From Actinomycetota bacterium (GTDB lineage: Bacteria; Planctomycetota; Phycisphaerae; JAACET01), in assembly GCA_011682385.1 (NCBI GenBank), contig JAACET010000006.1, positions 1-36,306 on the forward strand: a DNA stretch of 36,306 bases, written 5' to 3'. Below, in pieces: positions 22,174-35,754 of this stretch; positions within the stretch are counted from its first letter, which is position 1, and the number at the start of each line of letters is the position of its first letter. The notes below the pieces were generated by a model. It saw only the letters and a list, made by a program, of their open reading frames with translations. It did not search any database and was not told the DNA's origin. Position numbers and translations under genes: made by a program.

Positions 22174-22893
22174 ATGTTGCAAGCAATTGAAGATAACATC
22201 GCCTCATTGGTGGAGGGCTTGAATTTCAAACAGAAAGTCGAGCGATCTTTGTCGCTGATCGAGCAGGCTTATAAGGAGTACGGCCAAGGTCTGGTAGTAG
22301 CCGACAGTCTGGGCAAGGATTCCGTAGCGGTCTGGCACTTAGCCAAACGAGTTAGTCCGGATATACGTGGCTTTATCGTCACCACACGCTTCAAACCACC
22401 GGAAACGAAGCAATTCATGAAGGAAGAGGTAGCCAGATATCCCGAACTGAAGATCTACGAAAACAATGCGGAAATACCCGATCAGCTCTATGAGACGGAC
22501 CCCAACCGTTGCTGCGACATACTGAAGGTCGAACCGACTCGCCGAGCTATCGAAGAAATGCAAGTCAAATGCTGGATCACCGGCCTGCGCTGCACCGAAG
22601 GACGCACCCGCACGGACTTCCAAGAGGTCGAGGAACGCGATGAGGGCTTGCTCAAACTGAATCCTATACTCATTTGGTATGAACGAGAGATATGGCAATA
22701 CTTGGCACTGCATAAGGTTGACGTCAATCCTCTTTATATCGAGGGTTATCGTTCACTGGGTTGTGGCCCCTGCACAAAGATTACGACTGATCCTGACGAA
22801 CGAGCCGGCCGATGGATCGGCACCAGTAAGTGCGGCGGCGAATGCGGAATCCATACCCGCCCGCTGAAGCTTATTAACGGTGCCGGCATCTAG
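22174..22893 (+). CDS. cysH: 4Fe-4S APS reductase (CysH family)
   Basis: A 239-residue enzyme that reduces adenylylsulfate to sulfite and AMP with thioredoxin-type electrons. The PP-loop-like 'ADSLGKDSVAVWHL' (43-56) binds the nucleotide. C113-C114 and C197-x2-C200 ('NRCCDILK', 'LGCGPCTK') are the 4Fe-4S ligands that mark APS rather than PAPS reductases. C224 in 'ECGIHT' is the catalytic cysteine. Family enzymes have about 230-260 residues. AAGGAG lies 8 nt before the ATG. It opens the seven-gene sulfur run that ends at 28178. No ATP sulfurylase is present in the window, so APS must be made elsewhere. Confidence 0.92.
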   Translation: MLQAIEDNIASLVEGLNFKQKVERSLSLIEQAYKEYGQGLVVADSLGKDSVAVWHLAKRVSPDIRGFIVTTRFKPPETKQFMKEEVARYPELKIYENNAEIPDQLYETDPNRCCDILKVEPTRRAIEEMQVKCWITGLRCTEGRTRTDFQEVEERDEGLLKLNPILIWYEREIWQYLALHKVDVNPLYIEGYRSLGCGPCTKITTDPDERAGRWIGTSKCGGECGIHTRPLKLINGAGI

Positions 22894-22918
22894 GGAACCG
22901 TGGCAAAGGTGGAAGGTA

Positions 22919-23140
22919 ATGGAAACACGGTCCCGAAGTATTGCCAAGGCACTGACCTGGCGGGTTACAGCGCTGGGGATTACTATGACGGTGGTTTGGA
23001 TAGCCAGCGGCAGTATGGAGCTGGCCGCGTCCGTTGGCCTGGCAGACACGGTAATAAAGTTGGGGGCCTATTACGGTCATGAGCGTTTCTGGCTGAAGGT
23101 AGGTTTCGGCAGAGCCAAGCCGCCCGATTATCAGATTTGA
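22919..23140 (+). CDS. DUF2061 small membrane protein
   Basis: A 73-residue protein with the DUF2061 pattern: 'RSIAKALTWRVTALGITMTVVWIASG' and 'GLADTVIKLGAYYGHERFW'. Two hydrophobic segments (about residues 12-30 and 33-50) suggest a membrane hairpin. The biochemical role is unknown. The family is often found beside sulfate-activation genes, as here. ATG 22919 has a GGAAGG just upstream. It lies 25 nt after cysH and 20 nt before metY. Confidence 0.8.
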   Translation: METRSRSIAKALTWRVTALGITMTVVWIASGSMELAASVGLADTVIKLGAYYGHERFWLKVGFGRAKPPDYQI

Positions 23141-23160
23141 GGCCGAACAAGGATATCGTG

Positions 23161-24396
23161 GTGAAAAAACACACATTAGCTATTCATGGTGGCTACGCAC
23201 CGGACGCAGAAACCGGCGCTACTGCTCCGCCGATTTATCAAACTATTTCCTTCGCCTATCAAACTGCTGAAGAGCTCTCGGAGGTCTTTGCCGGAACTGC
23301 ACCAGGCCATGTATATACCCGAATTACCAATCCAACCCCTTATGCCCTTGAACAGCGCTTGACGAAACTCGAAGGCGGTGTTGGCTCTCTGGTTTGCTCT
23401 TCGGGGATGGCCGCTATTACCTGCGTAGTCGCCGGCCTTTTGAGAACTGGTGATCATGTGCTATCTACGGCTGGGATATTTGGCGGAACGGTATCGCTTT
23501 TCAAAAACACTTTTGGGCGATTTGGCGTCGAGACAACCTTTGTTGACGCGGCCGACACCGAGGAGTTGGCTAACAATCTTAGAAAAAACACTAAACTGAT
23601 TTTCGTCGAGACCATCGGCAATCCGCGGATGGACGTACCTGATATTCCAGCAATTGCAGATTTGGCTCACCAGGCTGGTATCCCCTTAGTTGTCGACAGT
23701 ACACTTACCACACCGATACTCATTCAGCCCAAGAATTGGGGTGCGGATATAGTTGTGCACTCGACCTCTAAGTTTATCAATGGCCACGGAAACTCCATTG
23801 GCGGAGCCATCATTGATACCGGCAACTTTTCATGGTCGGACGGTCCATTCGAGGATATCAGGGAACTGGCCAAGAAAGCCGGCCAACTGGCGTTTCTCGC
23901 CCAGCTTCGCAACCTCATCTATAGAGATCTTGGTTGCTGCCCAGCCCCTTTTAATTCTTTTCTTACACTTACAGGCTTAGAGACACTTCCCGGCCGGATG
24001 GACAGACATTGTGCCAATGCACAGCAGTTGGCTGAGTTTTTACAGAAACACCCCAAGGTCTGCTGGGTCAACTATCCGGGTTTGCCGTCGAGTCCGTTCT
24101 ATGCCAGGGCTCAGAAACTCTTTGATGGCCGTGGCGGCGGACTGCTAACCTTTGGCCTAGGCAACCGCAATGCAGCTTTTGGCTTCATAAACGCTACCAA
24201 GCTCGCTCAAAACATGACCAATCTGGGTGATGCCAAAACCCTGGTACTTCATCCAGCCTCAACCATCTTCCACGAGTTTGGCCTGGATGAGCAAAAGTCT
24301 ATGGGTGTGAGCGAAGACATGGTTCGCGTGTCGGTTGGCATAGAGGACTTTGATGACATAAGAGATGATTTTGCCCAAGCTTTGGCACAGACATAA
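23161..24396 (+). CDS. metY: O-acetylhomoserine sulfhydrylase (MetY-type)
   Basis: A 411-residue Cys/Met-metabolism PLP enzyme. Y52 and R54 ('VYTRITNPT') and 'CSSGMAAI' contact PLP, and K204 is the Schiff-base lysine ('VVHSTSKFINGHGNSIGG'). The long 'GDAKTLVLHPASTIF' loop is typical of O-acetylhomoserine sulfhydrylases. It forms homocysteine from O-acetylhomoserine and a sulfur donor. The donor may be free sulfide, but the next gene encodes a ThiS-like carrier, as in Wolinella succinogenes, where MetY accepts sulfur from a protein thiocarboxylate. GTG 23161 has AAGGA 7 nt upstream; GTG 23158 is too close to it. Confidence 0.92.
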   Translation: MKKHTLAIHGGYAPDAETGATAPPIYQTISFAYQTAEELSEVFAGTAPGHVYTRITNPTPYALEQRLTKLEGGVGSLVCSSGMAAITCVVAGLLRTGDHVLSTAGIFGGTVSLFKNTFGRFGVETTFVDAADTEELANNLRKNTKLIFVETIGNPRMDVPDIPAIADLAHQAGIPLVVDSTLTTPILIQPKNWGADIVVHSTSKFINGHGNSIGGAIIDTGNFSWSDGPFEDIRELAKKAGQLAFLAQLRNLIYRDLGCCPAPFNSFLTLTGLETLPGRMDRHCANAQQLAEFLQKHPKVCWVNYPGLPSSPFYARAQKLFDGRGGGLLTFGLGNRNAAFGFINATKLAQNMTNLGDAKTLVLHPASTIFHEFGLDEQKSMGVSEDMVRVSVGIEDFDDIRDDFAQALAQT

Positions 24397-24412
24397 CATA
24401 AGGACGATTAGT

Positions 24413-24628
24413 ATGAAGTTGAGTATTAACGGCAAAGAGGTAGAAACCAACGGTTCTCAAACCGTTACGGAACTGCTTAAAGAGCAGAAAGTAAAATGGC
24501 CGGACATGGTTTCCGTTGAGCTAAACGGCACGATTTTGAAGAGGGAGACTTTCGCCTCCACGAAATTGACTGAAGGCGACAAGGTGGAGTTCCTTTATTT
24601 TATGGGAGGCGGATGTGTCACTAACTGA
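24413..24628 (+). CDS. ThiS-like sulfur carrier with masked C-terminus (HcyS-like)
   Basis: A 71-residue ubiquitin-fold protein ('MKLSINGKEVETNGSQTVTELLKEQ' ... 'TEGDKVEFLYFMGGGCVTN'). Active ThiS/MoaD carriers end in free Gly-Gly. Here the glycines (65-67) are followed by Cys-Val-Thr-Asn (68-71), which must be removed before adenylation. Extra residues after the diglycine are known in QbsE of Pseudomonas and HcyS of Wolinella, both processed by a JAMM protease. A JAMM gene lies two genes downstream. The tail codons overlap the start of the E1 gene (GTG 24615) by 14 nt. The AAGGA site is 8 nt before ATG 24413. The role in homocysteine or cysteine synthesis follows from the neighbours. Confidence 0.85.
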   Translation: MKLSINGKEVETNGSQTVTELLKEQKVKWPDMVSVELNGTILKRETFASTKLTEGDKVEFLYFMGGGCVTN

Positions 24629-25427
24629 TCAGCAAATCGAACGCTATAGCCGACAGATCATCCTAGAGCAAGTCGGCGGGGCCGGCCAAGAGAAGCTCCT
24701 GTCCTCAAAGGTGCTAATTGTCGGGGCCGGCGGTTTAGGATCCCCGGCCGCTTTGTACTTGGCCGCTGCAGGCGTGGGCACTATAGGTCTTATCGATGCC
24801 GATAAGGTGGACCTGAGCAATCTGCAAAGGCAGATAATCCATCGGAGTAAAGATGTTGACAAGACCAAGGTAGCCTCCGCTTCAGAGAAAATCGAGGCCA
24901 TTAATTCAGACGTTGCTGTTGAGGTTTATTCGGAAAGGCTCACGACGGCAAATGCCCGCCAGATTATCCAACACTACGACTTCGTGATCGACGGGACTGA
25001 CAATTTTCCGACGAAGTTTTTGATTAATGATGCCTGCTACTTCGAGACGGTCCCCTTCTCCCACGCCGGGATACTGCGATTTGATGGGCAAATGATCACC
25101 GTGTTGCCGGGCCGGACAGCTTGCTATCGTTGCCTGTTCAACAAACCTCCACCCGCTGGGCTTGTGCCTTCCTGCTCTCAAGCTGGCGTACTCGGCCCAT
25201 TAGCTGGAGTGATCGGATGTCTGCAGGCCACGGAAGTGCTGAAATACCTGCTTGGTGTCGGCGAGCTTCTAACGGATAGGCTGTTGATATTTGATGGCCT
25301 CGGATTGCAGTTCCGCGAAGTGACGGTCAATCGCAATCCGGACTGCCGAATATGTGGCCGGGAACCCTCAATCACCGAACTCATAGACGAAGAGCAAGCG
25401 GTATGTGATCTAAGAGCGAGTAAGTAA
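24615..25427 (+). CDS. E1-like sulfur-carrier adenylyltransferase (MoeB/ThiF/HcyF-like)
   Basis: A 270-residue enzyme that activates the carrier's terminal glycine with ATP so that it can receive sulfur. It shows the ATP loop 'VGAGGLGSPAALYLA' (36-50), 'DADKVDLSNLQRQIIH', the conserved R13/R72-type arginines, catalytic C187 ('SCSQAGVLGPLAGVIG'), and the zinc cysteines C170-x2-C173 and C244-x2-C247. There is no rhodanese domain, so sulfur must come from another protein, possibly the TusA domain of the reductase encoded downstream. GTG 24615 overlaps the carrier gene, and its stop overlaps the next start by 1 nt (TAATG). Confidence 0.9.
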   Translation: MSLTDQQIERYSRQIILEQVGGAGQEKLLSSKVLIVGAGGLGSPAALYLAAAGVGTIGLIDADKVDLSNLQRQIIHRSKDVDKTKVASASEKIEAINSDVAVEVYSERLTTANARQIIQHYDFVIDGTDNFPTKFLINDACYFETVPFSHAGILRFDGQMITVLPGRTACYRCLFNKPPPAGLVPSCSQAGVLGPLAGVIGCLQATEVLKYLLGVGELLTDRLLIFDGLGLQFREVTVNRNPDCRICGREPSITELIDEEQAVCDLRASK

Positions 25428-25852
25428 TGGCTGCGTTAGAAATTCCGAGAAATATATTTTCCCAAATGCTGGCCCAGGCGCAAGCAGAGGCTCCCATTGA
25501 GGCCTGTGGTCTCTTGGCCGGCACCGACCATCGTGTTCAGCGACTATACAAAATGACCAATACGGACCAGAGCGCAGACCACTTTACGATGGCCCCGGAG
25601 GAACAGTTTGCTGCGATAAAAGACATGCGGGCAAAAGGTTTGGAGATGTTAGCTATTTATCACAGCCACCCCGCCAGCCCCGCCCGGCCGTCGGCCGAGG
25701 ACATTCGCCTGGCTCTTACTGATGGCGTTTTATATGTGGTTCTCTCACTCCAGGAGTCCTCAGAGCCCAAGGTGAGAGCATTCTATATTGATGACGGAGT
25801 CGTATCCGAATCGGAACTCAAAATTGTCGAGGCAAATAATGGCTCAAATTAA
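25427..25852 (+). CDS. JAMM/Mov34 metalloprotease (Mec+/QbsD/HcyD-like)
   Basis: A 141-residue zinc protease with the complete JAMM motif: E25 ('APIEACGLLAG') and H79-x-H81-x7-S89-x2-D92 ('YHSHPASPARPSAEDIRLA'). The prokaryotic single-domain members cut after Gly-Gly, either removing C-terminal tails from sulfur carriers (QbsD, HcyD) or releasing the amino acid product (Mec+). Its partner is most likely the carrier at 24413-24628, which bears a four-residue tail. It shares one base with the E1 stop and overlaps the sulfite reductase start by 14 nt, so the operon is translationally coupled. Confidence 0.9.
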   Translation: MAALEIPRNIFSQMLAQAQAEAPIEACGLLAGTDHRVQRLYKMTNTDQSADHFTMAPEEQFAAIKDMRAKGLEMLAIYHSHPASPARPSAEDIRLALTDGVLYVVLSLQESSEPKVRAFYIDDGVVSESELKIVEANNGSN

Positions 25853-28178
25853 TACTGCTTTTCAACTTCCCCAGAGCATAACGGAAGACACCTTGGCTTA
25901 TGGCCAAAAGGTCAGAGAATTTTTGGATGGTCAGACCAGGCCAGCGGTTTTTAAAGCCTATCGCATACCTCGCGGAATATACGAGCAGAGACAGGCTGGT
26001 GCGTTTATGGTCCGGGTGAGAGTGCCTGCCGGCATGATCTTGCCGGAGCAGATCCAGCGTCTGGCGGAACTTAGCCGAACCTATGGCAACGGAGTCCTTC
26101 ATATTACGACCAGACAGGACGTCCAGATCCACCAGGTAAAACTAAAAAACACACCAATAATTCTGGAGAGTCTCTTGGAGGTTGGTTTGTCTTCACGAGG
26201 TGGCGGCGGAAACACCGTCCGAAACATAACCGCCTGCCCCAGAGCCGGCGTGTGTCCGAACGAGGCCTTTGACGTGAGGCCATATGCCATTGCCCTGTCC
26301 GAATACCTACTGGACTCTGAGAGTTCGTTCAATCTGCCTCGCAAATTCAAGGTGGCTTTTTCGGGATGCAGCCAGGATTGCGCCTTAGCATCCGTAACGG
26401 ACCTGGGTTTCTTCGCTCACCTCAAAGATACGACCAAGCGTTTCAGTGTTTACGCTGGCGGAGGAATGGGCTCCAATTCGCGAATAGCAGCAAAGATCAA
26501 AGATTTCATCCTGGCTAAGGAAGTCTTTTCTGTTGCCGAGGCCATGAAACGCCTGTTCGATCAACACGGTGATCGGACTAACAAGCATCGGGCTCGACTG
26601 CGCTATGTGCTTGAACGGCTAGGCCGAGACGAATTTATCAGGCTCTATCAACAGCAGCGGGAAAAACTGCAACAGGAACACCTGCAGGCGCCGGCAATCC
26701 GGTCGATTATCTCGACGTCTAAGGCCTCTGCATTATCCAGCTCAGCTACTACGGATAAACTGCCGGATGGATACAAGAACTGGCGAAAGATAAACGTGCT
26801 GGCGGAGAAAAAGCCCGGAGAGTTTACCATCAGGCTCAGGCTTGCTCTGGGAGATATTTCAGCAGACGACTTTGAGAAGATCGCGTCTTTAGCTGACATG
26901 GTTGGCGAAGGCGTTATACGAACAACGCAGTTGCAGGACCTTTTGCTATGTCAGGTGCGAGAGGATGACTTGCCTTTTGTCTTTGCCCAACTCAGTGGTC
27001 TCAAGACGGACGTCCTCACAGCCCATGGTCCGAAGCTGATAGCTTGTGCTGGGGCTTCGACGTGCAGACAAGGTCTTTGCCGCTCGCGTGGTCTAGCCAC
27101 AGCCATAGCTGATAAGTTGCGACAGACAGACCTATCCATCGAGTTTGGCGACGAGGTTATAAGGATAAGCGGCTGTCCCAATTCTTGTGGGCATCACTTG
27201 GTCGGCGCCATTGGACTTCAGGGCCGAGCAAAGCGTGTCGGGGACAGGCTGGTGCCTTGTTATGCGATCCTGGTCGGAGGAAAAGCAGCAGAAGCAGAGG
27301 CGCGTTTAGCCGAGCAAGTGGAACTAATACCCGCTAAGAACGTACCCGCCTTGGTGTCCGATGTATTAGGCGTAGGGCAGCCTCTAGGACAAGCTGGGAA
27401 GGAGCAGATTGCCAAGATCGCAGCAAAATATAGTCATATCCCTACGATTGAGGAACAGCCGGACGTATACCGCGATTTTGGCGATACCGAAGATTTTTCG
27501 CTTGCCGGCCGTGGCCCGGGCGAGTGCGGCGCAGGTGTTATGGATGTTATCCAGCTCGATATCGACCAGGCTAAACAGTCGCTCGACAGAGCCAAGGATG
27601 CTGCCGACGGCAAGGCCAAATCCGAAGTCCTATATAAAGCTATTGTTGCTGCCGCCCGGTCACTTCTGATTACCCGTGGCCTGGAGCCCAAGAAGGATAG
27701 GGAGATATTTACATCCTTTAGCGAACACCTGATCGAGCCCGGATGGATCGCCCAGGAGACAAAGGAGTTTCTGGACCAGGCTCTTGATTACCGTCTGGGG
27801 GATACGGACGACATATCCCATTTGGAGAAATCTGTAGAAGGAATGCTCGGGAGAGTGGAAGAACTTTTCCGCTCACTTGATGCCAATCTTAACTTTAGAG
27901 TCGAGCCGATCTCCAAGAAACTCTCTGACAAAGAATCCTCAAAAGGTAATAAGCAGGCGATTGACCTCAGGGGTGTTGAATGTCCACTAAACTTTGTGAA
28001 GGCAAAGCTGGCCTTGGAGAAAATTGACCTTGGGCAGGTCCTGGAAGTCGTGCTTGACGCTGGCGAGCCGGTAGCCAATGTCTCAGCCAGTTTTGCCGAG
28101 CAAGGCCAGGAGGTGCTGAATGTGGGCAAGGACGGCGAACACTTCCACGTTACGATCCGCAAAAAAAAGCAAATCTAA
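25839..28178 (+). CDS. sir: Siroheme sulfite reductase with C-terminal TusA domain
   Basis: A 779-residue fusion. Residues 1-540 form a two-half nitrite/sulfite reductase. Each half has a full Cx5C...Cx3C set: C133, C139, C177, C181 and C403, C409, C446, C450 ('ACAGASTCRQG', 'GCPNSCGHH'). Usually one half of such enzymes has lost it. Residues about 560-690 are a helical linker ('DIDQAKQSLDRAKDAADGKAKSEVL...', HEPN-like in pattern). Residues about 704-779 are a TusA/SirA domain with the sulfur-relay cysteine C715 ('DLRGVECPLNFVKAKLAL'). ATG 25839 overlaps the JAMM gene; the in-frame ATGs at 25788 and 25791 would lie deep inside it. It reduces sulfite to sulfide, and the TusA domain may pass the sulfur to the carrier system (inference). 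Confidence 0.9.
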   Translation: MAQINTAFQLPQSITEDTLAYGQKVREFLDGQTRPAVFKAYRIPRGIYEQRQAGAFMVRVRVPAGMILPEQIQRLAELSRTYGNGVLHITTRQDVQIHQVKLKNTPIILESLLEVGLSSRGGGGNTVRNITACPRAGVCPNEAFDVRPYAIALSEYLLDSESSFNLPRKFKVAFSGCSQDCALASVTDLGFFAHLKDTTKRFSVYAGGGMGSNSRIAAKIKDFILAKEVFSVAEAMKRLFDQHGDRTNKHRARLRYVLERLGRDEFIRLYQQQREKLQQEHLQAPAIRSIISTSKASALSSSATTDKLPDGYKNWRKINVLAEKKPGEFTIRLRLALGDISADDFEKIASLADMVGEGVIRTTQLQDLLLCQVREDDLPFVFAQLSGLKTDVLTAHGPKLIACAGASTCRQGLCRSRGLATAIADKLRQTDLSIEFGDEVIRISGCPNSCGHHLVGAIGLQGRAKRVGDRLVPCYAILVGGKAAEAEARLAEQVELIPAKNVPALVSDVLGVGQPLGQAGKEQIAKIAAKYSHIPTIEEQPDVYRDFGDTEDFSLAGRGPGECGAGVMDVIQLDIDQAKQSLDRAKDAADGKAKSEVLYKAIVAAARSLLITRGLEPKKDREIFTSFSEHLIEPGWIAQETKEFLDQALDYRLGDTDDISHLEKSVEGMLGRVEELFRSLDANLNFRVEPISKKLSDKESSKGNKQAIDLRGVECPLNFVKAKLALEKIDLGQVLEVVLDAGEPVANVSASFAEQGQEVLNVGKDGEHFHVTIRKKKQI

Positions 28179-28370: not shown

Positions 28371-29840
28371 ATGCCCCATTTTGAGCTGTTCCCATCGCCG
28401 CCCAAGGACGACCTTCAGGTCCCAGCGAGTCCGCCCATCCAAGTCGGCTCTGAAGTGGCCATCCAGAATATCCTTTGGTTTATCACCCTCAGATGGATTG
28501 CCGTGGCTGTCTTTCTAGCCGTCGAGATTACTGCCGCTCTTTTCGGTCCGGCCTTACGAACCAACCACGGCATCGAGGTCCCTAACCAATGGCCCTGGAT
28601 ATTGGCGGTGACCCTGGCCTTGGCCAATCTCTGCTTTTTTATACACGCTCGAAGGCTCACCATCCAAACTCCCTCCAAATCCAGTGTCTATCTGAATATC
28701 TGGTCCCAGATCGTGGTTGACTTGCTAACCTTGACAGTCGTGGTTCATTTTCTAGGTAGCTTGACCACTTTCATCTGTTTCGCCTATCTCTTTCATACCG
28801 TCTTGGCTTGCATCTTCTTTCCTCCCCGATTAAGCTTAGCCGTTACTTTTATGGTTTGTCTACTCTATGTCGGCTGTGTCGCCGCCGAATTGGCCAACAT
28901 CATCCCCCCAGCCAGCATATATGCCGAGCAGGCAAACCACAGCCTCCGAGCAGAACTCTTTAATTCGCCGCTCAGGCTCAGCTTCCACGTTGGCTCTGCC
29001 ATCGGAATATTCCTGGTTGTCTGGTATTTAGCCAGCAATCTCTCCTCAGCCGTCCGCCAGAGGGACCATCAGCTGCTCATCATCAACGAGCGACTCCTGT
29101 CCGCCGATCGTGAACGTACCCAGCACATGCTCCACACTACCCACGAGCTCAAGGCTCCTTTTGCAGCTATCCAGTCCTACGTCCAACTCTTGATGAAGGG
29201 CTATTGTGGACCACTTACCGATGACTCCCGCGATGTCTTGGCCAAAATCGACGCTCGTAGTCAGAGATTATCCAATCAAATCCGCGAGATGCTTCAGTTA
29301 GCCAACCTCCGTTCGGCCACTGCGGGTGCTCGTTCCTTTGAACAGCTTGACGTAGCCCAAATCTTGAGCCGGGCCCTGGCCGCCAGCCAAGCTCAAGCTC
29401 AAGCACGCGATATTTCCTTCCGCACCGACCTGCAAAAAGCAAACGTCCAGGGAGTGGCTGAACAATTGGAAATGATGTTGGCCAACCTCTTAGCCAACGC
29501 TGTCCAGTATTCTCACCCTTCCGGCACTGTAACCGTCAGCTCCCGCCAACTTGAGGATGGATCTGCTCGCGTCCAGATCAGCGACCAGGGAATTGGTATC
29601 CGCCCGGACGCTTTGCCCCGTATCTTTGAGGAATACTATCGTTCCAAGGAAGCTGCACAACACAATCCCATGTGTACCGGCTTGGGCCTGGCCATCGTTA
29701 AGCACATCGCCCAAACCCACAACATTGCCCTTCGCGTCGAAAGCGAACTCGCCCAAGGTACTACCTTCATCCTGACTTTCCCCCGACCAAAAAACATCAT
29801 TCACCCTGATGCTCAGCACACATCGATGCGGGATTCATAA
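28371..29840 (+). CDS. Membrane-bound sensor histidine kinase (orphan)
   Basis: A 489-residue kinase. Five or six membrane helices lie between about residues 35 and 222. A short coiled linker (225-250) follows, then the phosphoacceptor H258 ('HTTHELKAPFAAIQSYV'). The ATPase domain has the N-box 'LANLLANAVQYSHPSG', G1 'DQGIGI', F-box 'FEEYYRSKE' and G2 'GTGLGLAI' ('CTGLGLAI' here). No periplasmic sensor domain is evident, so the helices may sense a membrane signal such as quinone state. GAGGTG lies 6 nt before ATG 28371. No response regulator is adjacent. The gene is strikingly C-rich on the plus strand, unlike the G-rich operon that follows. Confidence 0.87.
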   Translation: MPHFELFPSPPKDDLQVPASPPIQVGSEVAIQNILWFITLRWIAVAVFLAVEITAALFGPALRTNHGIEVPNQWPWILAVTLALANLCFFIHARRLTIQTPSKSSVYLNIWSQIVVDLLTLTVVVHFLGSLTTFICFAYLFHTVLACIFFPPRLSLAVTFMVCLLYVGCVAAELANIIPPASIYAEQANHSLRAELFNSPLRLSFHVGSAIGIFLVVWYLASNLSSAVRQRDHQLLIINERLLSADRERTQHMLHTTHELKAPFAAIQSYVQLLMKGYCGPLTDDSRDVLAKIDARSQRLSNQIREMLQLANLRSATAGARSFEQLDVAQILSRALAASQAQAQARDISFRTDLQKANVQGVAEQLEMMLANLLANAVQYSHPSGTVTVSSRQLEDGSARVQISDQGIGIRPDALPRIFEEYYRSKEAAQHNPMCTGLGLAIVKHIAQTHNIALRVESELAQGTTFILTFPRPKNIIHPDAQHTSMRDS

Positions 29841-30287: not shown

Positions 30288-33200
30288 ATGAGCCGTGCCC
30301 GCATAAAACGACTATTGTCAGCATTCCCTGCTGCGACCCTTCAGCATCTGGGTCTGTTTATAGCATTTGTGCTTCTAGTATCGGCGAATGAGTTTACGGC
30401 TGCCCATCCTGGCCTGGCATCAGGCCTGATATTTGTATTTTCCCTGCCCTACCTGCTGGCTTCGTTGGTGACCAAGCGGGCGAGTTTCCTGTATGCAATG
30501 ATGCTGCTTGGCGCAGTATCGTATTTTTTGGCGTGCCATGCCCTGGGCGCTCCGGGATCGACGTTCCCGCTGCTTTCAGTACCTCTGGTGGTGGTCCTGG
30601 AGCTTATCGGACAATATTTAAGGAAGCGGTTGGGCAAGGAATGGGCCAACTACCCGCGGACAGTCTTTCGGGCTATGAATATTACCGTAGCGGTTTTTAT
30701 GGTATGGGCGCTAGTTCAGGCCGGGGAACTTATCGGGCAAGGGGGGCTCATTTCGTGGGTGGCTGGGCTAGCCTTTCTGGGTTATGCGGGTCTTTATTTG
30801 GGGCACTGCTTGGCCAGGAGCCATGCGGTTTACACCTACACATTCGCTTGGTTCCTGAGTCTGGGAGGTATTTTCACGGCAGGGGTGTTAGCTGGTCTGG
30901 ATTACTGCTGGCTGCCGACAATAGCCTCGGCGGCATTGCTTCTACTGCTGGGAACCAGATTGCACGGGCAGAGGAAATACGTCTGGTCGCGGCATTTCTA
31001 TTTCTCAGCGGCGGCAGTGGTGTTCGTTTCGCTGTGCTTTGCCGCCTTTCACTGGACGTTCTTGCTGATTGACTTAGCCCTGGCGTCGCTGTTGCTGTGG
31101 GTTGGATACACGTGGCTGGTGCGAGCTGTGGGTGGAGTCCGGCAGGCGACCATGGCCGAGCGGGTGATAGCGAAGTATTTATTCTCTGCGGCTGTGGTGC
31201 TGGTCGTGCCGGTAATGGTGGTGCTGTTTATCAACCCGACGGATGCTTACGTTGTTTGCTCGGCCCTGCTCTGCGGGCTGAGCTTGTCGTGGATCGCCTG
31301 GCAACGTAAGAGCCAGGTTTCGGCCTGGGCGAGTGTTTATCTGCTGGGGGCGGGGATGTTTGTTTCGGGGGCGCTGCTGGGGATATCCGGGCAGCTTAGC
31401 GGCTGGCTGATGGTGAGCTGGTCGTTGGCTGCTGCAGTAGTGGTGCTAATTACCCTGGCCTTGCTGGGGCGGGCTACGGACGAAATAACTCGGAGGAGGC
31501 TGGGGACAGCGGCAATTTTCCCAGCCTTTTTCGCCTGGTACGTGCCAATGCTGCAGGGCCAATTGGTGTTGGCTTTGGTAGCGGCAGGGGCAACACTGCT
31601 AGCGGTGCTGGCAGTGGGGGCGTATCTTAAAGAGAGATATTTCTACTGCGCTATTGGGCCGACACTGGCCGGAGCGTTTACGGCTGTGGTTCTGTTATTG
31701 GCTGGTCCGGGTCAGGCTGCATGGATTGCGTGCGTCGTGGCAGCAGCGGCAGCGGTGGCAGGTTTCATCTGGGCGGGAGGTGGCAAACGTCAGGTAATTC
31801 GCCTGGCGGCGAACCTGGCTTGGCTGATCCTGTCGGTGGCGGCTGTGGTAATAGCGGTTATGGCGGATGCGGGGCACTTGTCGTACTGCGTTACGGCGGT
31901 GGCGTTAGCATCGGTGTTGGCTGGCGGGTGGGCTAAGCGCAAGAGTGAGTCGGATATTCTGGATAAGCTGGTGCAAGCTGTAGCAGTGCTGGGGACGATC
32001 GGGGCAGTGCTGGTGGGGCCTTTGAGCGGCCGGAGTAATGTTCTTACGGGAGTGTGTTTGCTGATTCTCTCGGGTGGATATTGGCTGGCGTGGAGGCGGA
32101 GCCGGGGTATTTGGCATGTGCGTGCGACCAATTGGCTGTTCGCTTTGGGGGCGCTGCTGGTGATCTTGGCGGTATTTTCGAGCGCCGAAGCCCGATTGGG
32201 TGCGGCTGCGGGGGTAGTGTTGATATTATTTTCGGGTGCAGCCCTGCGTGGACGATTCGAGCAGGCTAGCCGTAGCGCGGTTTTGACGGGACATTTTAGC
32301 AGTATTGTTCTGGCGTGCGTAACGCTGATTATGGCATGGCAGCTGAGCACGTGGGGGATGGCCTTGGTGGTGCTGGGCTATGCGGTGATTTACGCGGCGA
32401 TGCCCAGGTTGCGGGCAAACAGTGGATTTCGGCTGGGGACGGGGCTGTGGCTGAGTTTGGCAATACTGCTGGGGCTGGCGGTGTACAGCGGTACTCCTTA
32501 CCGAGAGCAGTTACCTCAGTTAGCGGTGCTTTCGCTGATCTGGATGGCGGCTGGATACATCCTTAAGCGGCTGCAGTCGGAATCTTGGCCGATGCCTCTC
32601 TATATCTGTGCGGCGATGCTGGCGGGCTTCTGCGGATTGCTGAGCGTCTTTGCACCAGCGACAGAGGATTCCTGGGTCGTGTTCCTGGTCAATGGTATTG
32701 TCTTCGCCTGTCTGTTCCTGCTGGTACGGCAGGACATATTTGCTTATCTGATTACTTTGGCGTTGTCGTTGATGGCCTACGATTGGGTAAAGGCGAGCAC
32801 GAGTTCGTTTACTACAGATGTGCTGTTTTACCTGGTAATAGCTGCGGCGGTGCTGGGGCTGTTCTTCCTGCTGCCGCATCTGAAGAGGCTGGTGGTTCGG
32901 CTGGGTTCTATGCCGATGATCTCCATTTTCACCTGGCGAGGAGCGGCGATCATCTGCATACCGATAGCGGTGCTGGCCCTGCTGGTGCTGAGCACCTATT
33001 CGGTAAAGCTCAGCGGGCATCCGAAGTTCTGCACCTCGTGCCACTACATGGGAGATTACTACACTTCCTGGCAGCACTCTTCCCATAAGGATGTAGCCTG
33101 TATTGATTGTCACTATGAACCAGGTCTGACGGCGACACTAAAGGGCAAGATGGAGGGGATGGTCCAGTTGGTCAAGTATGTGTCGCACTCCTACGGGACC

Positions 33201-34310
33201 AAGCCTCACGCGTTGATTTCCAACGAGTCGTGCATGCGCTCGGGCTGCCATGGGGGAATGGATCACAGCAAAAAGACGCTGCTCTTTAAAGGGCAAATTC
33301 GTTTTCGTCACGATAAACATCTGGACGAACAGCCGCGGGGGAAGAAGTTGAACTGTGTTAGTTGTCACGGACAGACTGTGGAGGGCGAGCACATCAGCGT
33401 CAGCGAGACCACCTGCATCACCTGCCATTTCTACGGGCGAAAGCAGAAGTCGGTGGCGGCTGGGAAATGTCTGACCTGTCACGTGGAGCCCCAGAAGACA
33501 GTAACTTTCATGGGGCAACCGTTCAACCACCGAGAGTTCTTGAAGGGCAAAGAATCTGTCCGTTGCACCTATTGCCACAGCCAAGTCACGCAGGGGGATG
33601 GGGCCATCTCCCCGACTCGGTGCCGGAGCTGCCACCGTGGTTCGCTGGAGAAAATTGAGGACCAAGCCCAGTTCCACCTGGTGCACGTGTCCCAGGGTCA
33701 CTTTGACTGCTTACAGTGTCATGACGAGATCAAACACGGTATTCATCCGATGGAGCAGCAGTTGCTGGCTTCGGGCAATTGCAGTAGTTGCCACGAGGGG
33801 GAACGACACTCTCTGCAGGAGCGTATTTACGCGGGGACGGCCTTGGCGGAAATAGAAAGACTCCCGGATGCAATGTACAAGGCTGGCGTGGCCTGCGACG
33901 GGTGCCATACCGACGTCCAGAGCGCCGGGCTGGGCGGGGTACCCTTTACCAAGAAGCTATCGGGGCCTAAACAGTGCGCCGACTGTCACGGCAGTGAGAT
34001 GTACGGTCAGATGCTGGTTTCTTGGCAGGAAGACATCAAAGAACGGCTTGGCGAACTTCAGCCGGACTTGAAGCGATTAGACGAGATATGTCGGGCGGCG
34101 CAGGTTCCAGCCGAGGAACTTACCAAGGCTCAAGAGCTGCTGAACTCGGCTAAAACCAAACTGTCGTACGTGATCCAGGACGGCAGCTACGGGGTGCATA
34201 ACATCGCTTACGTCTCGGCTATCCTGGACAGTGCCGAAGCTGAGATCGAGAGGTGCCGGTCCCTGACTGCTCTATGGAACCAAGCTGGCCCCGAGGAGTC
34301 CAGACGATGA
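30288..34310 (+). CDS. Giant polytopic membrane protein fused to a dodecaheme c-type cytochrome
   Basis: A 1340-residue protein. Residues 1 to about 905 are almost entirely hydrophobic helices (roughly 25-30 by eye) with short charged loops and no family I recognise. A last helix (about 885-905, 'IICIPIAVLALLVLSTYSV') leads to a periplasmic haem domain. This starts like NapC/NirT ('FCTSCHYM...W..SSHKDVACIDCH', first haem cysteine C915) and runs to C1230. It holds 11 CxxCH sites and one CX4CH (C982-C987-H988), hence 12 predicted haems. A helical tail without haem sites (1240-1340) ends the chain. The next gene (hdrC) overlaps its stop by 4 nt. It likely links the quinone pool or outer electron carriers to the cytoplasmic HdrCBA module (inference). 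Confidence 0.85.
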   Translation: MSRARIKRLLSAFPAATLQHLGLFIAFVLLVSANEFTAAHPGLASGLIFVFSLPYLLASLVTKRASFLYAMMLLGAVSYFLACHALGAPGSTFPLLSVPLVVVLELIGQYLRKRLGKEWANYPRTVFRAMNITVAVFMVWALVQAGELIGQGGLISWVAGLAFLGYAGLYLGHCLARSHAVYTYTFAWFLSLGGIFTAGVLAGLDYCWLPTIASAALLLLLGTRLHGQRKYVWSRHFYFSAAAVVFVSLCFAAFHWTFLLIDLALASLLLWVGYTWLVRAVGGVRQATMAERVIAKYLFSAAVVLVVPVMVVLFINPTDAYVVCSALLCGLSLSWIAWQRKSQVSAWASVYLLGAGMFVSGALLGISGQLSGWLMVSWSLAAAVVVLITLALLGRATDEITRRRLGTAAIFPAFFAWYVPMLQGQLVLALVAAGATLLAVLAVGAYLKERYFYCAIGPTLAGAFTAVVLLLAGPGQAAWIACVVAAAAAVAGFIWAGGGKRQVIRLAANLAWLILSVAAVVIAVMADAGHLSYCVTAVALASVLAGGWAKRKSESDILDKLVQAVAVLGTIGAVLVGPLSGRSNVLTGVCLLILSGGYWLAWRRSRGIWHVRATNWLFALGALLVILAVFSSAEARLGAAAGVVLILFSGAALRGRFEQASRSAVLTGHFSSIVLACVTLIMAWQLSTWGMALVVLGYAVIYAAMPRLRANSGFRLGTGLWLSLAILLGLAVYSGTPYREQLPQLAVLSLIWMAAGYILKRLQSESWPMPLYICAAMLAGFCGLLSVFAPATEDSWVVFLVNGIVFACLFLLVRQDIFAYLITLALSLMAYDWVKASTSSFTTDVLFYLVIAAAVLGLFFLLPHLKRLVVRLGSMPMISIFTWRGAAIICIPIAVLALLVLSTYSVKLSGHPKFCTSCHYMGDYYTSWQHSSHKDVACIDCHYEPGLTATLKGKMEGMVQLVKYVSHSYGTKPHALISNESCMRSGCHGGMDHSKKTLLFKGQIRFRHDKHLDEQPRGKKLNCVSCHGQTVEGEHISVSETTCITCHFYGRKQKSVAAGKCLTCHVEPQKTVTFMGQPFNHREFLKGKESVRCTYCHSQVTQGDGAISPTRCRSCHRGSLEKIEDQAQFHLVHVSQGHFDCLQCHDEIKHGIHPMEQQLLASGNCSSCHEGERHSLQERIYAGTALAEIERLPDAMYKAGVACDGCHTDVQSAGLGGVPFTKKLSGPKQCADCHGSEMYGQMLVSWQEDIKERLGELQPDLKRLDEICRAAQVPAEELTKAQELLNSAKTKLSYVIQDGSYGVHNIAYVSAILDSAEAEIERCRSLTALWNQAGPEESRR

Positions 34311-34870
34311 GATGGGAACTAGCGGACAAGGCTTTGCATTCGGACTTCCGCCGGCGGGTGGAAGAGCTTAGCGGACAAAACCTTGGCGAGTGTTACCAGT
34401 GCGGAAAATGTACCGGGGGCTGTCCGGTGCTGGCGGATATCGAACTTTCCCCGAACCGGGTGATCCGCATGATACAGTTGGGCCTGGAAGAGGATGTTCT
34501 GACCAACGAGTCGATCTGGTGTTGCACAGCCTGCGGGACGTGTAACGGTCGTTGTCCGATGGGTGTCGATATCGTTCGCATCCTTGATACTGTTCGATTG
34601 CTGTCGCAGCGCAGCAAGTACCGACCTGGCGCTTTGGAGGTCTTGACGTTCTACCAAGCGTTTCTGAATTGCATACGACATTTCGGGCGGCTAAACGAGA
34701 TAGGCCTGATGGGCAGCTATAACATAAACTCGGGGCGTCTGCTTACAAACATGGTCAAGGCTCCCTGGTTTTTCATGAAGGGCAAGATAAGCCTCTCGCC
34801 ACACAAGATTCGGCGGATCGAAAGGCTCGAGCGGGTCTTTGCACGAATCGAGGAGATAGAAGGCAAATGA
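34307..34870 (+). CDS. hdrC: HdrC-like 4Fe-4S protein
   Basis: A 187-residue iron-sulfur subunit with two 4Fe-4S motifs: C29-x2-C32-x2-C35-x3-C39-P and C73-x2-C76-x2-C79-x3-C83-P ('CYQCGKCTGGCP', 'CTACGTCNGRCP'). These are typical of HdrC, which passes electrons between HdrA and HdrB. ATG 34307 overlaps the cytochrome stop (ATGA); a more upstream in-frame start at 34253 would lie inside the cytochrome gene. No membrane helices are evident, so it is the soluble HdrC type rather than HdrE-linked. Its stop overlaps hdrB by 4 nt. Confidence 0.92.
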   Translation: MRWELADKALHSDFRRRVEELSGQNLGECYQCGKCTGGCPVLADIELSPNRVIRMIQLGLEEDVLTNESIWCCTACGTCNGRCPMGVDIVRILDTVRLLSQRSKYRPGALEVLTFYQAFLNCIRHFGRLNEIGLMGSYNINSGRLLTNMVKAPWFFMKGKISLSPHKIRRIERLERVFARIEEIEGK

Positions 34871-35754
34871 GATACGGTTATTTTCCAGGATGTTCTCTGC
34901 TGTCCAGTGCCGTCGAGTACGATCGGTCGGCCCGGGCTGTGCTGGGCGCGGTGGGTGTGGAGCTGGAAGAAATCGACGACTGGGTTTGCTGCGGGGCAAC
35001 GGCGGCTCACGCTACGAGCCCTCTGCTGTCGGCGGCGTTGCCGGCGATTTCGTGTGCGGCGGCGGAGAAGCAGGGGTTGGATGTGCTGACCTGCTGCGCG
35101 GCTTGTTATAGCCGACTGAAGTCGGTTAACAGGGAAGTCAAGGACGACCCCAAGCTGCAAAAACAAATCAGCGAAATCATTGAAGAGCCGTATGAGGGAA
35201 ACGTGCGGGTGCTGCACATTACCGAAGTATTGGGCCGAGAGATTGGTACCGAGGCGATCAAGGCTGCGGTGCAAAAGCCGTTAGAGGGCCTGAAGGTCGC
35301 CTGCTACTACGGCTGTCTGATGGCTCGGATGCCGGAGGCCCTGTGTGTGGACAAGGCGGAATACCCGGTCCTGATGGATGATCTTATCAGGGCGGTGGGG
35401 GGCGAGCCGGTGGATTGGCCCTACAAGACCGAGTGCTGCGGAGCGGCCCTGACTCTGGCCAGACAAAAGACGGTGATCCGGCTCAGTGGCGAGGTTGTCC
35501 AGATTGCCAAGGCCAACGGAGCTGACATTCTGGCGGTGGCCTGTCCGTTGTGCCAGGCTAATCTTGATATGTATCAGGCCAACGCGGAAAAGCTGCTGGG
35601 TGAGCAGTTGGGAGTACCGGTGCTTTACTTTACCCAACTGATGGGTTTGGCGATGGGACTGCCAACTGAGGAGCTTTGTTTGGATAAGGTTATTGTGGAC
35701 CCGATGCCGCTGCTTAGCGAGAAGGGCTTTATCAGCGGAGGGGTTTACTTGTAA
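34867..35754 (+). CDS. hdrB: HdrB-like heterodisulfide reductase subunit (two CCG domains)
   Basis: A 295-residue protein with both CCG domains that hold the non-cubane 4Fe-4S clusters of HdrB. N-terminal set: C9, C41-C42, C76-C77 and C80 ('FPGCSLL', 'WVCCGA', 'TCCAAC'). C-terminal set: C146/C150, C190-C191, C226-x2-C229 ('CYYGCLMAR', 'TECCGAA', 'ACPLCQ'). In methanogens this subunit reduces CoM-S-S-CoB. In bacteria the substrate is usually unknown and may be another disulfide. It is translationally coupled to hdrC and lies 73 nt before hdrA. Confidence 0.93.
   Translation: MRYGYFPGCSLLSSAVEYDRSARAVLGAVGVELEEIDDWVCCGATAAHATSPLLSAALPAISCAAAEKQGLDVLTCCAACYSRLKSVNREVKDDPKLQKQISEIIEEPYEGNVRVLHITEVLGREIGTEAIKAAVQKPLEGLKVACYYGCLMARMPEALCVDKAEYPVLMDDLIRAVGGEPVDWPYKTECCGAALTLARQKTVIRLSGEVVQIAKANGADILAVACPLCQANLDMYQANAEKLLGEQLGVPVLYFTQLMGLAMGLPTEELCLDKVIVDPMPLLSEKGFISGGVYL

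Follow-up and report, generated by a model that had tools for sequence, protein, structure and literature searches.

Does a single gene in an uncultivated bacterium really join dozens of membrane helices to a multihaem cytochrome, and if so, what would its product do? The question is raised by an open reading frame (ORF) of 1340 residues within a 36,306-nucleotide stretch of DNA (hereafter the window; contig JAACET010000006.1 of assembly GCA_011682385.1), deposited as an Actinomycetota bacterium and placed by GTDB in Planctomycetota, Phycisphaerae, JAACET01. We found that the fusion is genuine. As judged by its sequence, its product is a NapC/ImcH-like membrane cytochrome whose membrane domain lies outside any described family, and it very likely serves as membrane partner to a downstream-encoded Hdr-Flx-Nuo complex of the cytoplasm. 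Genomes, contigs and loci are cited below by our G, C and L labels.

The fusion is a single intact gene found in at least two phyla

The ORF was open from ATG to stop without internal stop codons (30288-34310, + strand). Hydrophobicity of this sequence alone gave 32 segments, and averaging over nine homologues gave 33 membrane helices, counting one marginal helix (residues 816-834). The initial annotation had proposed a single polypeptide of about 25-30 helices plus a cytochrome; the single ORF held up, and the helix count turned out somewhat higher, at 32 + 1. Helices 1-32 formed 16 hairpins with very short outer loops, and helix 33 (885-903) was the NapC-type anchor. Lys and Arg sums in the nine-homologue topology were 48 in even loops versus 7.8 in odd loops. 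This near-perfect positive-inside alternation indicates that the N-terminus is inside and the haem domain outside.

Eight genomes, representing at least two phyla, had an intact helix-cytochrome junction (37-86% identity), so the survey for recurrence proposed in the initial annotation had a positive outcome. Full-length open homologues (1339-1455 residues) were present in G392 (= G766, same genus; 86% identity), G393 (L004; 53%), G114 (49%) and G145 (49-53% by segment). The copies in G394, G395 and G160 were cut by contig ends, each still spanning the junction; that of G395 was split across two contig ends (residues 3-684, then 700-1335). In G453, both ends of the fusion were present on separate contigs. 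The ratio of nonsynonymous to synonymous substitution rates (dN/dS) between the window and its 86% relative (L003, JAUXAG010000024.1) was 0.19 for the helix part, compared with 0.085 for the cytochrome part; purifying selection acts through both halves. The chance that two neighbouring genes were joined artificially, whether through misassembly, loss of a stop codon or a frameshift (the last already raised as a concern in the initial annotation), is practically negligible; nothing spoke for it and we rejected it, because the junction is identical in eight independent assemblies, both halves are under purifying selection, no conserved internal start exists at the junction across homologues, and no homologues split into separate genes were found. 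A chance origin is also excluded by the conservation of the helix region from end to end and by the invariance of all 12 haem motifs described below.

The helix region without the cytochrome occurred in no searched genome except at contig ends, apart from one fragment in G145. This 153-aa ORF at L036 (G145:C561:4734-4958) matched helix-domain residues 315-390 (E = 7.5e-12) and is possibly a fragment of a second fusion copy. The fusion was detected in 4 of 392 genomes of the window's phylum and 3 of 150 relatives. By class, it occurred in 3 of 9 genomes for that of G145, 2 of 297 for that of G395 and 1 of 8 for that of G393. Matches in the phylum of G394 numbered 3 among 68 genomes, the third (G421) matching the cytochrome part only; locus L005 (JAACEL010000429.1) falls in this phylum-level group. 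Since the collection holds only 68 genomes of the G394 phylum, it differs from the phylum of the window, which places the fusion in at least two phyla. No match was found in the plasmid collection.

The cytochrome half has a NapC/NrfH-like start and twelve haems

The NapC/NirT family PF03264 matched residues 887-974 with 30.0 bits (cut-off, 24.1), and all 12 haem motifs, 11 CxxCH and one CX4CH, followed residue 914, the first being at residue 915. This bears out the initial description of a NapC/NirT-like start followed by these motifs. A motif scan of the 1340 residues revealed no further C-x2-5-CH motif and no CxxCK. Seven fused homologues and three stand-alone ones all retained the 12 motifs without variation, including the CX4CH spacing. 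The same 10 homologues invariably kept the Met of haem 1 (CxxCHxM, here CTSCHYM) and K954, which aligned with K82, the quinol-site Lys of NrfH.

The C-terminal cytochrome part gave profile matches to PDB entries 6i5b (E = 5.9e-22), which we take to be OcwA, and 4rkm (MccA; E = 1.9e-7), and also to NrfA. The likeness extends over the C-terminal haem and helix part, whereas these proteins are terminal reductases without a membrane domain, and the fusion lacks CxxCK and has a NapC-like start. An AlphaFold model of the cytochrome half was too poor for a fold search (predicted local distance difference test, pLDDT, 49.5).

One stand-alone relative of the 12-haem half, a protein of 490 residues (cyt490) with a single anchor, is encoded on contig C94 of the same genome; it had escaped the initial annotation. 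The ordinary, one-anchor form thus exists, and the fusion adds a helix domain to it. On C94 (L016), cyt490 is accompanied within 17 kb by genes for an Nqr-type complex, acetyl-CoA synthetase, a c554-like cytochrome, a doubled-CXXCH (MtrA/DmsE-like) cytochrome of 530 aa and ResB/CcsA haem attachment. A stand-alone relative in G114 (L026:742-2817, - strand; 691-aa ORF) has a C-terminal extension bearing extra CxxCH motifs.

The 32-helix domain matches no described family

No Pfam family matched residues 1-879 at E values up to 10, whichever of the nine members was searched; NCBIfam gave no match either, and the PDB profile search returned just chance matches to alcohol dehydrogenases (E >= 0.05). 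On these searches, the helix domain belongs to no described family; the initial annotation had also considered that it might match a known one. DUF2339 (PF10101), a large polytopic family, was tried and rejected: its profile missed the fusion gene in its own genome at E <= 0.01 and missed all nine members. Profile comparison detected no four-helix tandem repeats (probabilities <= 1.5%; 5% for the two halves).

An AlphaFold model of the helix domain, built with nine sequences, was of low confidence (pLDDT 66; predicted template-modelling score, pTM, 0.56). Searched against the PDB, it gave nothing at E <= 0.001, and the best matches were unrelated helical solenoids with template-modelling (TM) scores below 0.25. 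From this model, we draw no conclusion about the predicted fold past regular hairpins.

Conservation peaked at both ends of the domain (helices 1-6 and 29-33) and was lowest in the middle. The fully conserved charged residues (R64, R128, R235, R292, R340, R505, D556, R715, D832, D844 and R871) were in loops or at helix ends, and no conserved acidic or basic residue was found in mid-membrane across five to seven independent homologues. There was no conserved His pair: H173, in a loop, was the sole invariant His, and H669, in a different helix, was 83% conserved. The suggestion in the initial annotation that the helix region is a quinone-interacting or coupling module thus gained no support from a His pair, a mid-membrane charge or a fold match.

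An invariant Hdr-Flx-Nuo operon follows the fusion gene

The fusion gene leads an operon of the order hdrC-hdrB-hdrA/nuoE-nuoF-nuoG/hdrA-mvhD(flxD)-flxC-flxB-flxA, which the initial annotation did not mention. The window stops at HdrA reference residue 159 and contig C152 of the same genome resumes at about residue 164, continuing with NuoE, Fdx/NuoF, NuoG/HdrA, MvhD (FlxD), a 4Fe-4S protein (FlxC-like), a HydB/AsrA-like protein (FlxB) and a HydG/AsrB-like FNR (FlxA). The FlxABCD-type subunits are named by similarity, their scores being below the NCBIfam equivalog cut-offs. Gene order was invariant in nine genomes as far as the contigs reached: through flxA in L003, L004 and L043, and up to the contig ends in L013, L015, L014, L005 and L030.

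Among 294 sampled genomes, HdrB proteins of fusion loci were 70-74% identical to the query and the next best were at most 48% identical. The HdrB clade of at least 70% identity was confined to genomes with the fusion. At the examined loci of the HdrBs at or below 48%, hdrC was preceded by neither a cytochrome gene nor one for a large polytopic protein. Because of the operon and this exclusive HdrB clade, the fusion is very likely the membrane partner of the Hdr-Flx-Nuo complex. The initial annotation had proposed a candidate respiratory component, and the operon context makes a respiratory role very likely. Pairwise-distance correlations among the helix part, cytochrome part, HdrC and HdrB were 0.83-0.95, values dominated by one close pair and not used as proof.

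Some loci carry further cytochromes. Divergent from the fusion gene at L004 (1-3536, - strand) are genes for an 11-haem cytochrome, a probable beta-barrel and an 8-haem probable lipoprotein, likely a candidate outer-membrane porin-cytochrome conduit. The operon of G395 is followed by genes for a c554-like protein and a doubled-CXXCH cytochrome resembling MtrA/DmsE. The window's own genome encodes an Nqr complex, so quinones are presumably present. It also has a second NuoF-like cluster (L079; G000:C52), in which NuoF is 61% identical. The coordinates of the features in the window are collected in Table 1.

Table 1. Coordinates of the fusion gene, its domains and the adjoining hdr genes in the window
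Feature	Position	Strand	Basis
Fusion gene, 1340 aa: 32-helix membrane domain, NapC-like anchor and dodecahaem cytochrome	30288..34310	+	ATG start, uninterrupted ORF; full-length open homologues in G392/G766, G393, G114, G145
Helix domain, residues 1-879; 32 transmembrane helices as 16 hairpins; unnamed family	30288..32924	+	Topology, conservation, no family match
Best-conserved stretch among the last helices, residues 816-863, DIFAYLITLALSLMAYDWVKASTSSFTTDVLFYL onward	32733..32876	+	Helix 31 mean identity 0.85; D832, W833 and D844 invariant
Helix 33, NapC/NrfH-type anchor helix, residues 885-903	32940..32996	+	PF03264 stretch 887-974; stand-alone paralogues start at the equivalent anchor
NapC/NirT-like domain: haem 1 (CTSCHYM), haem 2, K954	32946..33209	+	PF03264; Met of haem 1 and K954 kept by all 10 homologues
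Third haem motif, CX4CH (CMRSGCH, residue 982)	33231..33251	+	Spacing invariant in fused and stand-alone homologues
c7/c3-like middle cytochrome part, residues ~1005-1116	33300..33638	+	PF14522, PF02085, PF14537
C-terminal cytochrome part, residues ~1099-1324	33582..34259	+	Profile similarity to PDB 6i5b, also MccA, NrfA
hdrC-like, two 4Fe-4S motifs	34307..34870	+	ATG overlaps fusion-gene stop (ATGA)
hdrB-like, two intact CCG motifs	34867..35754	+	ATG overlaps hdrC stop
hdrA N-terminus of HdrA-NuoE fusion, cut by contig end	35828..36306	+	Continues in contig C152 (L078), same genome

Two other parts of the window were noted. Some 450 bp separate the fusion gene from an upstream gene for a 489-aa membrane histidine kinase (28371-29840); a kinase 30% identical to it is encoded near the second Hdr cluster of G393 (L041). 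Positions 22174-28178 encode a phosphoadenosine-phosphosulfate (PAPS)-reductase-type protein, a Cys/Met pyridoxal phosphate (PLP) enzyme, ThiF, a JAB peptidase, and a siroheme sulfite/nitrite reductase with a C-terminal TusA/YedF-like domain. This cluster looks like one for sulfur assimilation via a protein-bound sulfur carrier.

Comparison with known systems

The quinol-to-haem proteins described for extracellular electron transfer comprise CymA, with one helix and four haems; CbcL/MtrH/MtoC, in which the haems precede six b-haem helices; and the NapC-like ImcH, with three helices and 6-10 haems (PMC6295460). ImcH, an inner-membrane cytochrome of Geobacter and a proposed quinol oxidase, is the closest described protein in layout: it too starts with membrane helices, the final one leading into a NapC/NirT-like part, and has extra c-haems thereafter (PMC6295460). 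However, ImcH has three helices, a CX3CH beside the membrane and 6-10 haem motifs, whereas the fusion has 33 helices, CX2CH as first motif and CX4CH as third, 12 haems and an Hdr operon. CbcL/MtrH/MtoC also unite a multihaem c part and a polytopic part in a single chain (PMC6295460), but in the reverse order to the fusion, which lacks b-haem ligands.

With NapC/NirT/NrfH/CymA (PF03264, TIGR03153), the fusion shares the anchor helix, the CxxCHxM of haem 1, a Lys at the NrfH K82 position and a PF03264 score above cut-off. The initial annotation placed it outside the described architecture of this family, and we agree: there, one anchor carries four or five haems, compared with 33 helices and 12 haems here; NrfH Asp89 is not conserved and the NrfH model TIGR03153 scored 51 bits, under its 134-bit cut-off. 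The operon shares hdrC, hdrB, hdrA, mvhD/flxD and flxC-, flxB- and flxA-like genes with the FlxABCD-HdrABC and HdrABC-MvhD complexes. Unlike in those complexes, HdrA is here divided, with one portion fused to a NuoE part and another to a NuoG part; in addition, the operon includes NuoF and opens with the gene for a membrane cytochrome. Hdr proteins are also paired with c-haems in HotSeep-1 bacteria, where HdrA reportedly forms a complex with a c-haem/CCG protein (PMC10553843); there, in contrast, the CCG domain and haems are on one protein and no 32-helix domain is described. Searches of the open-access literature turned up no description of a 32-helix cytochrome fusion or of its pairing with an Hdr operon.

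A proposed route for electrons and its alternatives

We infer a quinone intermediate, HdrB/C docking, a direction of electron flow and an extracellular destination, as well as a function for the helix domain. The complex would consist of HdrCB-HdrA/NuoE-NuoF-NuoG/HdrA-MvhD-FlxCBA with the fusion as its membrane-embedded subunit. NAD(P)H would be oxidised (in reverse, reduced) by the cytoplasmic enzyme via NuoEF and FlxA-like flavoproteins, and electrons would be split at HdrA. The HdrB/C branch would dock at the cytoplasmic face of the 32-helix domain, presumably on its positive loops, and pass electrons to (mena)quinone in the membrane. Quinol would then be oxidised by the NapC/NrfH-like module at the outer face, and the twelve haems would lead to periplasmic or outer-membrane cytochromes. 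NADH oxidation with electrons disposed of outside is the more economical direction; reverse flow, in which NAD or ferredoxin is reduced from an outside donor, is possible.

Because the helix domain has neither a conserved His pair nor membrane cofactors, electrons would cross by quinone or not at all. The NapC-like module is of a known quinol-to-haem type and the adjoining helices 29-32 are, with helices 1-6, the best conserved of the domain, so the quinone site is tentatively placed there. In this proposal, the helix domain would enclose a quinone cavity and serve as a docking scaffold; it would not be a redox wire, nor, probably, a pump. Consistent with a membrane cytochrome subunit of an NADH/Hdr-type complex that transfers electrons by quinone to periplasmic haems are the operon order, the ATGA overlaps, the exclusive HdrB, the NrfH-type haem-1 Met and K82 equivalent, Nqr, the putative L004 porin cluster and the MtrA/DmsE-like cytochrome of G395, together with the topology, which puts the haems outside and the hairpin loops and N-terminus inside.

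Several points weigh against this proposal. Asp89, the quinol-site Asp of NrfH, is not conserved; fused members have no acid at the aligned or preceding position, mostly Gln-Leu. Neither a quinone cavity nor a docking face is visible in the low-confidence model, and no homologue of the fusion has been experimentally characterised. HdrB is usually disulfide-reducing; the Hdr branch might therefore act on a soluble thiol, leaving the cytochrome as a separate outlet. The putative L004 barrel has no family match, its assignment as a porin resting on sequence character and position. Taking both sides together, we give the proposal as a whole about an even chance. The wider claim, that this is an undescribed class of respiratory complex in which an electron-bifurcating Hdr-Flx-Nuo enzyme sits on a 32-helix quinone-handling platform ending in a dodecahaem conduit, so that cytoplasmic NADH/ferredoxin chemistry would be wired to extracellular exchange in one assembly, is tentative and rather doubtful.

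Alternatively, the helix domain may be a mere scaffold or membrane organiser, a hairpin solenoid or belt that clusters Hdr complexes and cytochromes; quinone would play no part in it and the NapC module would draw on the free quinol pool. The regular hairpins, the weakly conserved middle, the resemblance of the model to helical solenoids and the existence of cyt490 without a helix domain fit this idea, but the strong conservation of both ends, including D832 and D844, suggests a specific site or contact, and we consider it unlikely.

A large polytopic domain joined to a redox module within an NADH-enzyme operon also recalls the pumps of respiratory complexes, which share this general shape. 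An ion-translocating coupling module like the antiporter-like subunits of complex I or NrfD would pump ions while electrons reach the haems. However, the conserved charges are confined to loops and helix ends, the middle helices are the least conserved part, and the Pfam antiporter, NrfD and Nqr/Rnf families did not match the helix domain of any of the nine members, making a pump quite improbable. Little probability also goes to a transporter or flippase (e.g. for haem, lipid or quinone) joined to the cytochrome for assembly or transport: size and helix number are compatible, and flippases can do without conserved charges, but no transporter family matched in Pfam, NCBIfam or the PDB, and the operon neighbours are all redox genes, none for transport or assembly. 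Finally, HdrBC-type proteins are paired with a membrane cytochrome b in HdrDE, DsrMK and TmcBC, but a direct b-haem wire from HdrC to the periplasmic haems, as in HdrE, DsrM or CbcL, is very unlikely here because the helix domain has no His pairs; nor did it match the profile of any cytochrome b membrane subunit.

Significance

Both bifurcating Hdr complexes in the cytoplasm and multihaem wires in the periplasm are widely found among anaerobes, but little is known of whether and how the two are physically joined. The operon described here unites an Hdr-type enzyme and a multihaem wire in one transcriptional unit through a membrane protein that defines a new large family without a solved relative. 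These results suggest a new linkage of internal electron carriers to wiring outside the membrane, and they offer a testable candidate for the coupling of NADH/ferredoxin balance to outside electron exchange in uncultivated Phycisphaerae-like and other bacteria.

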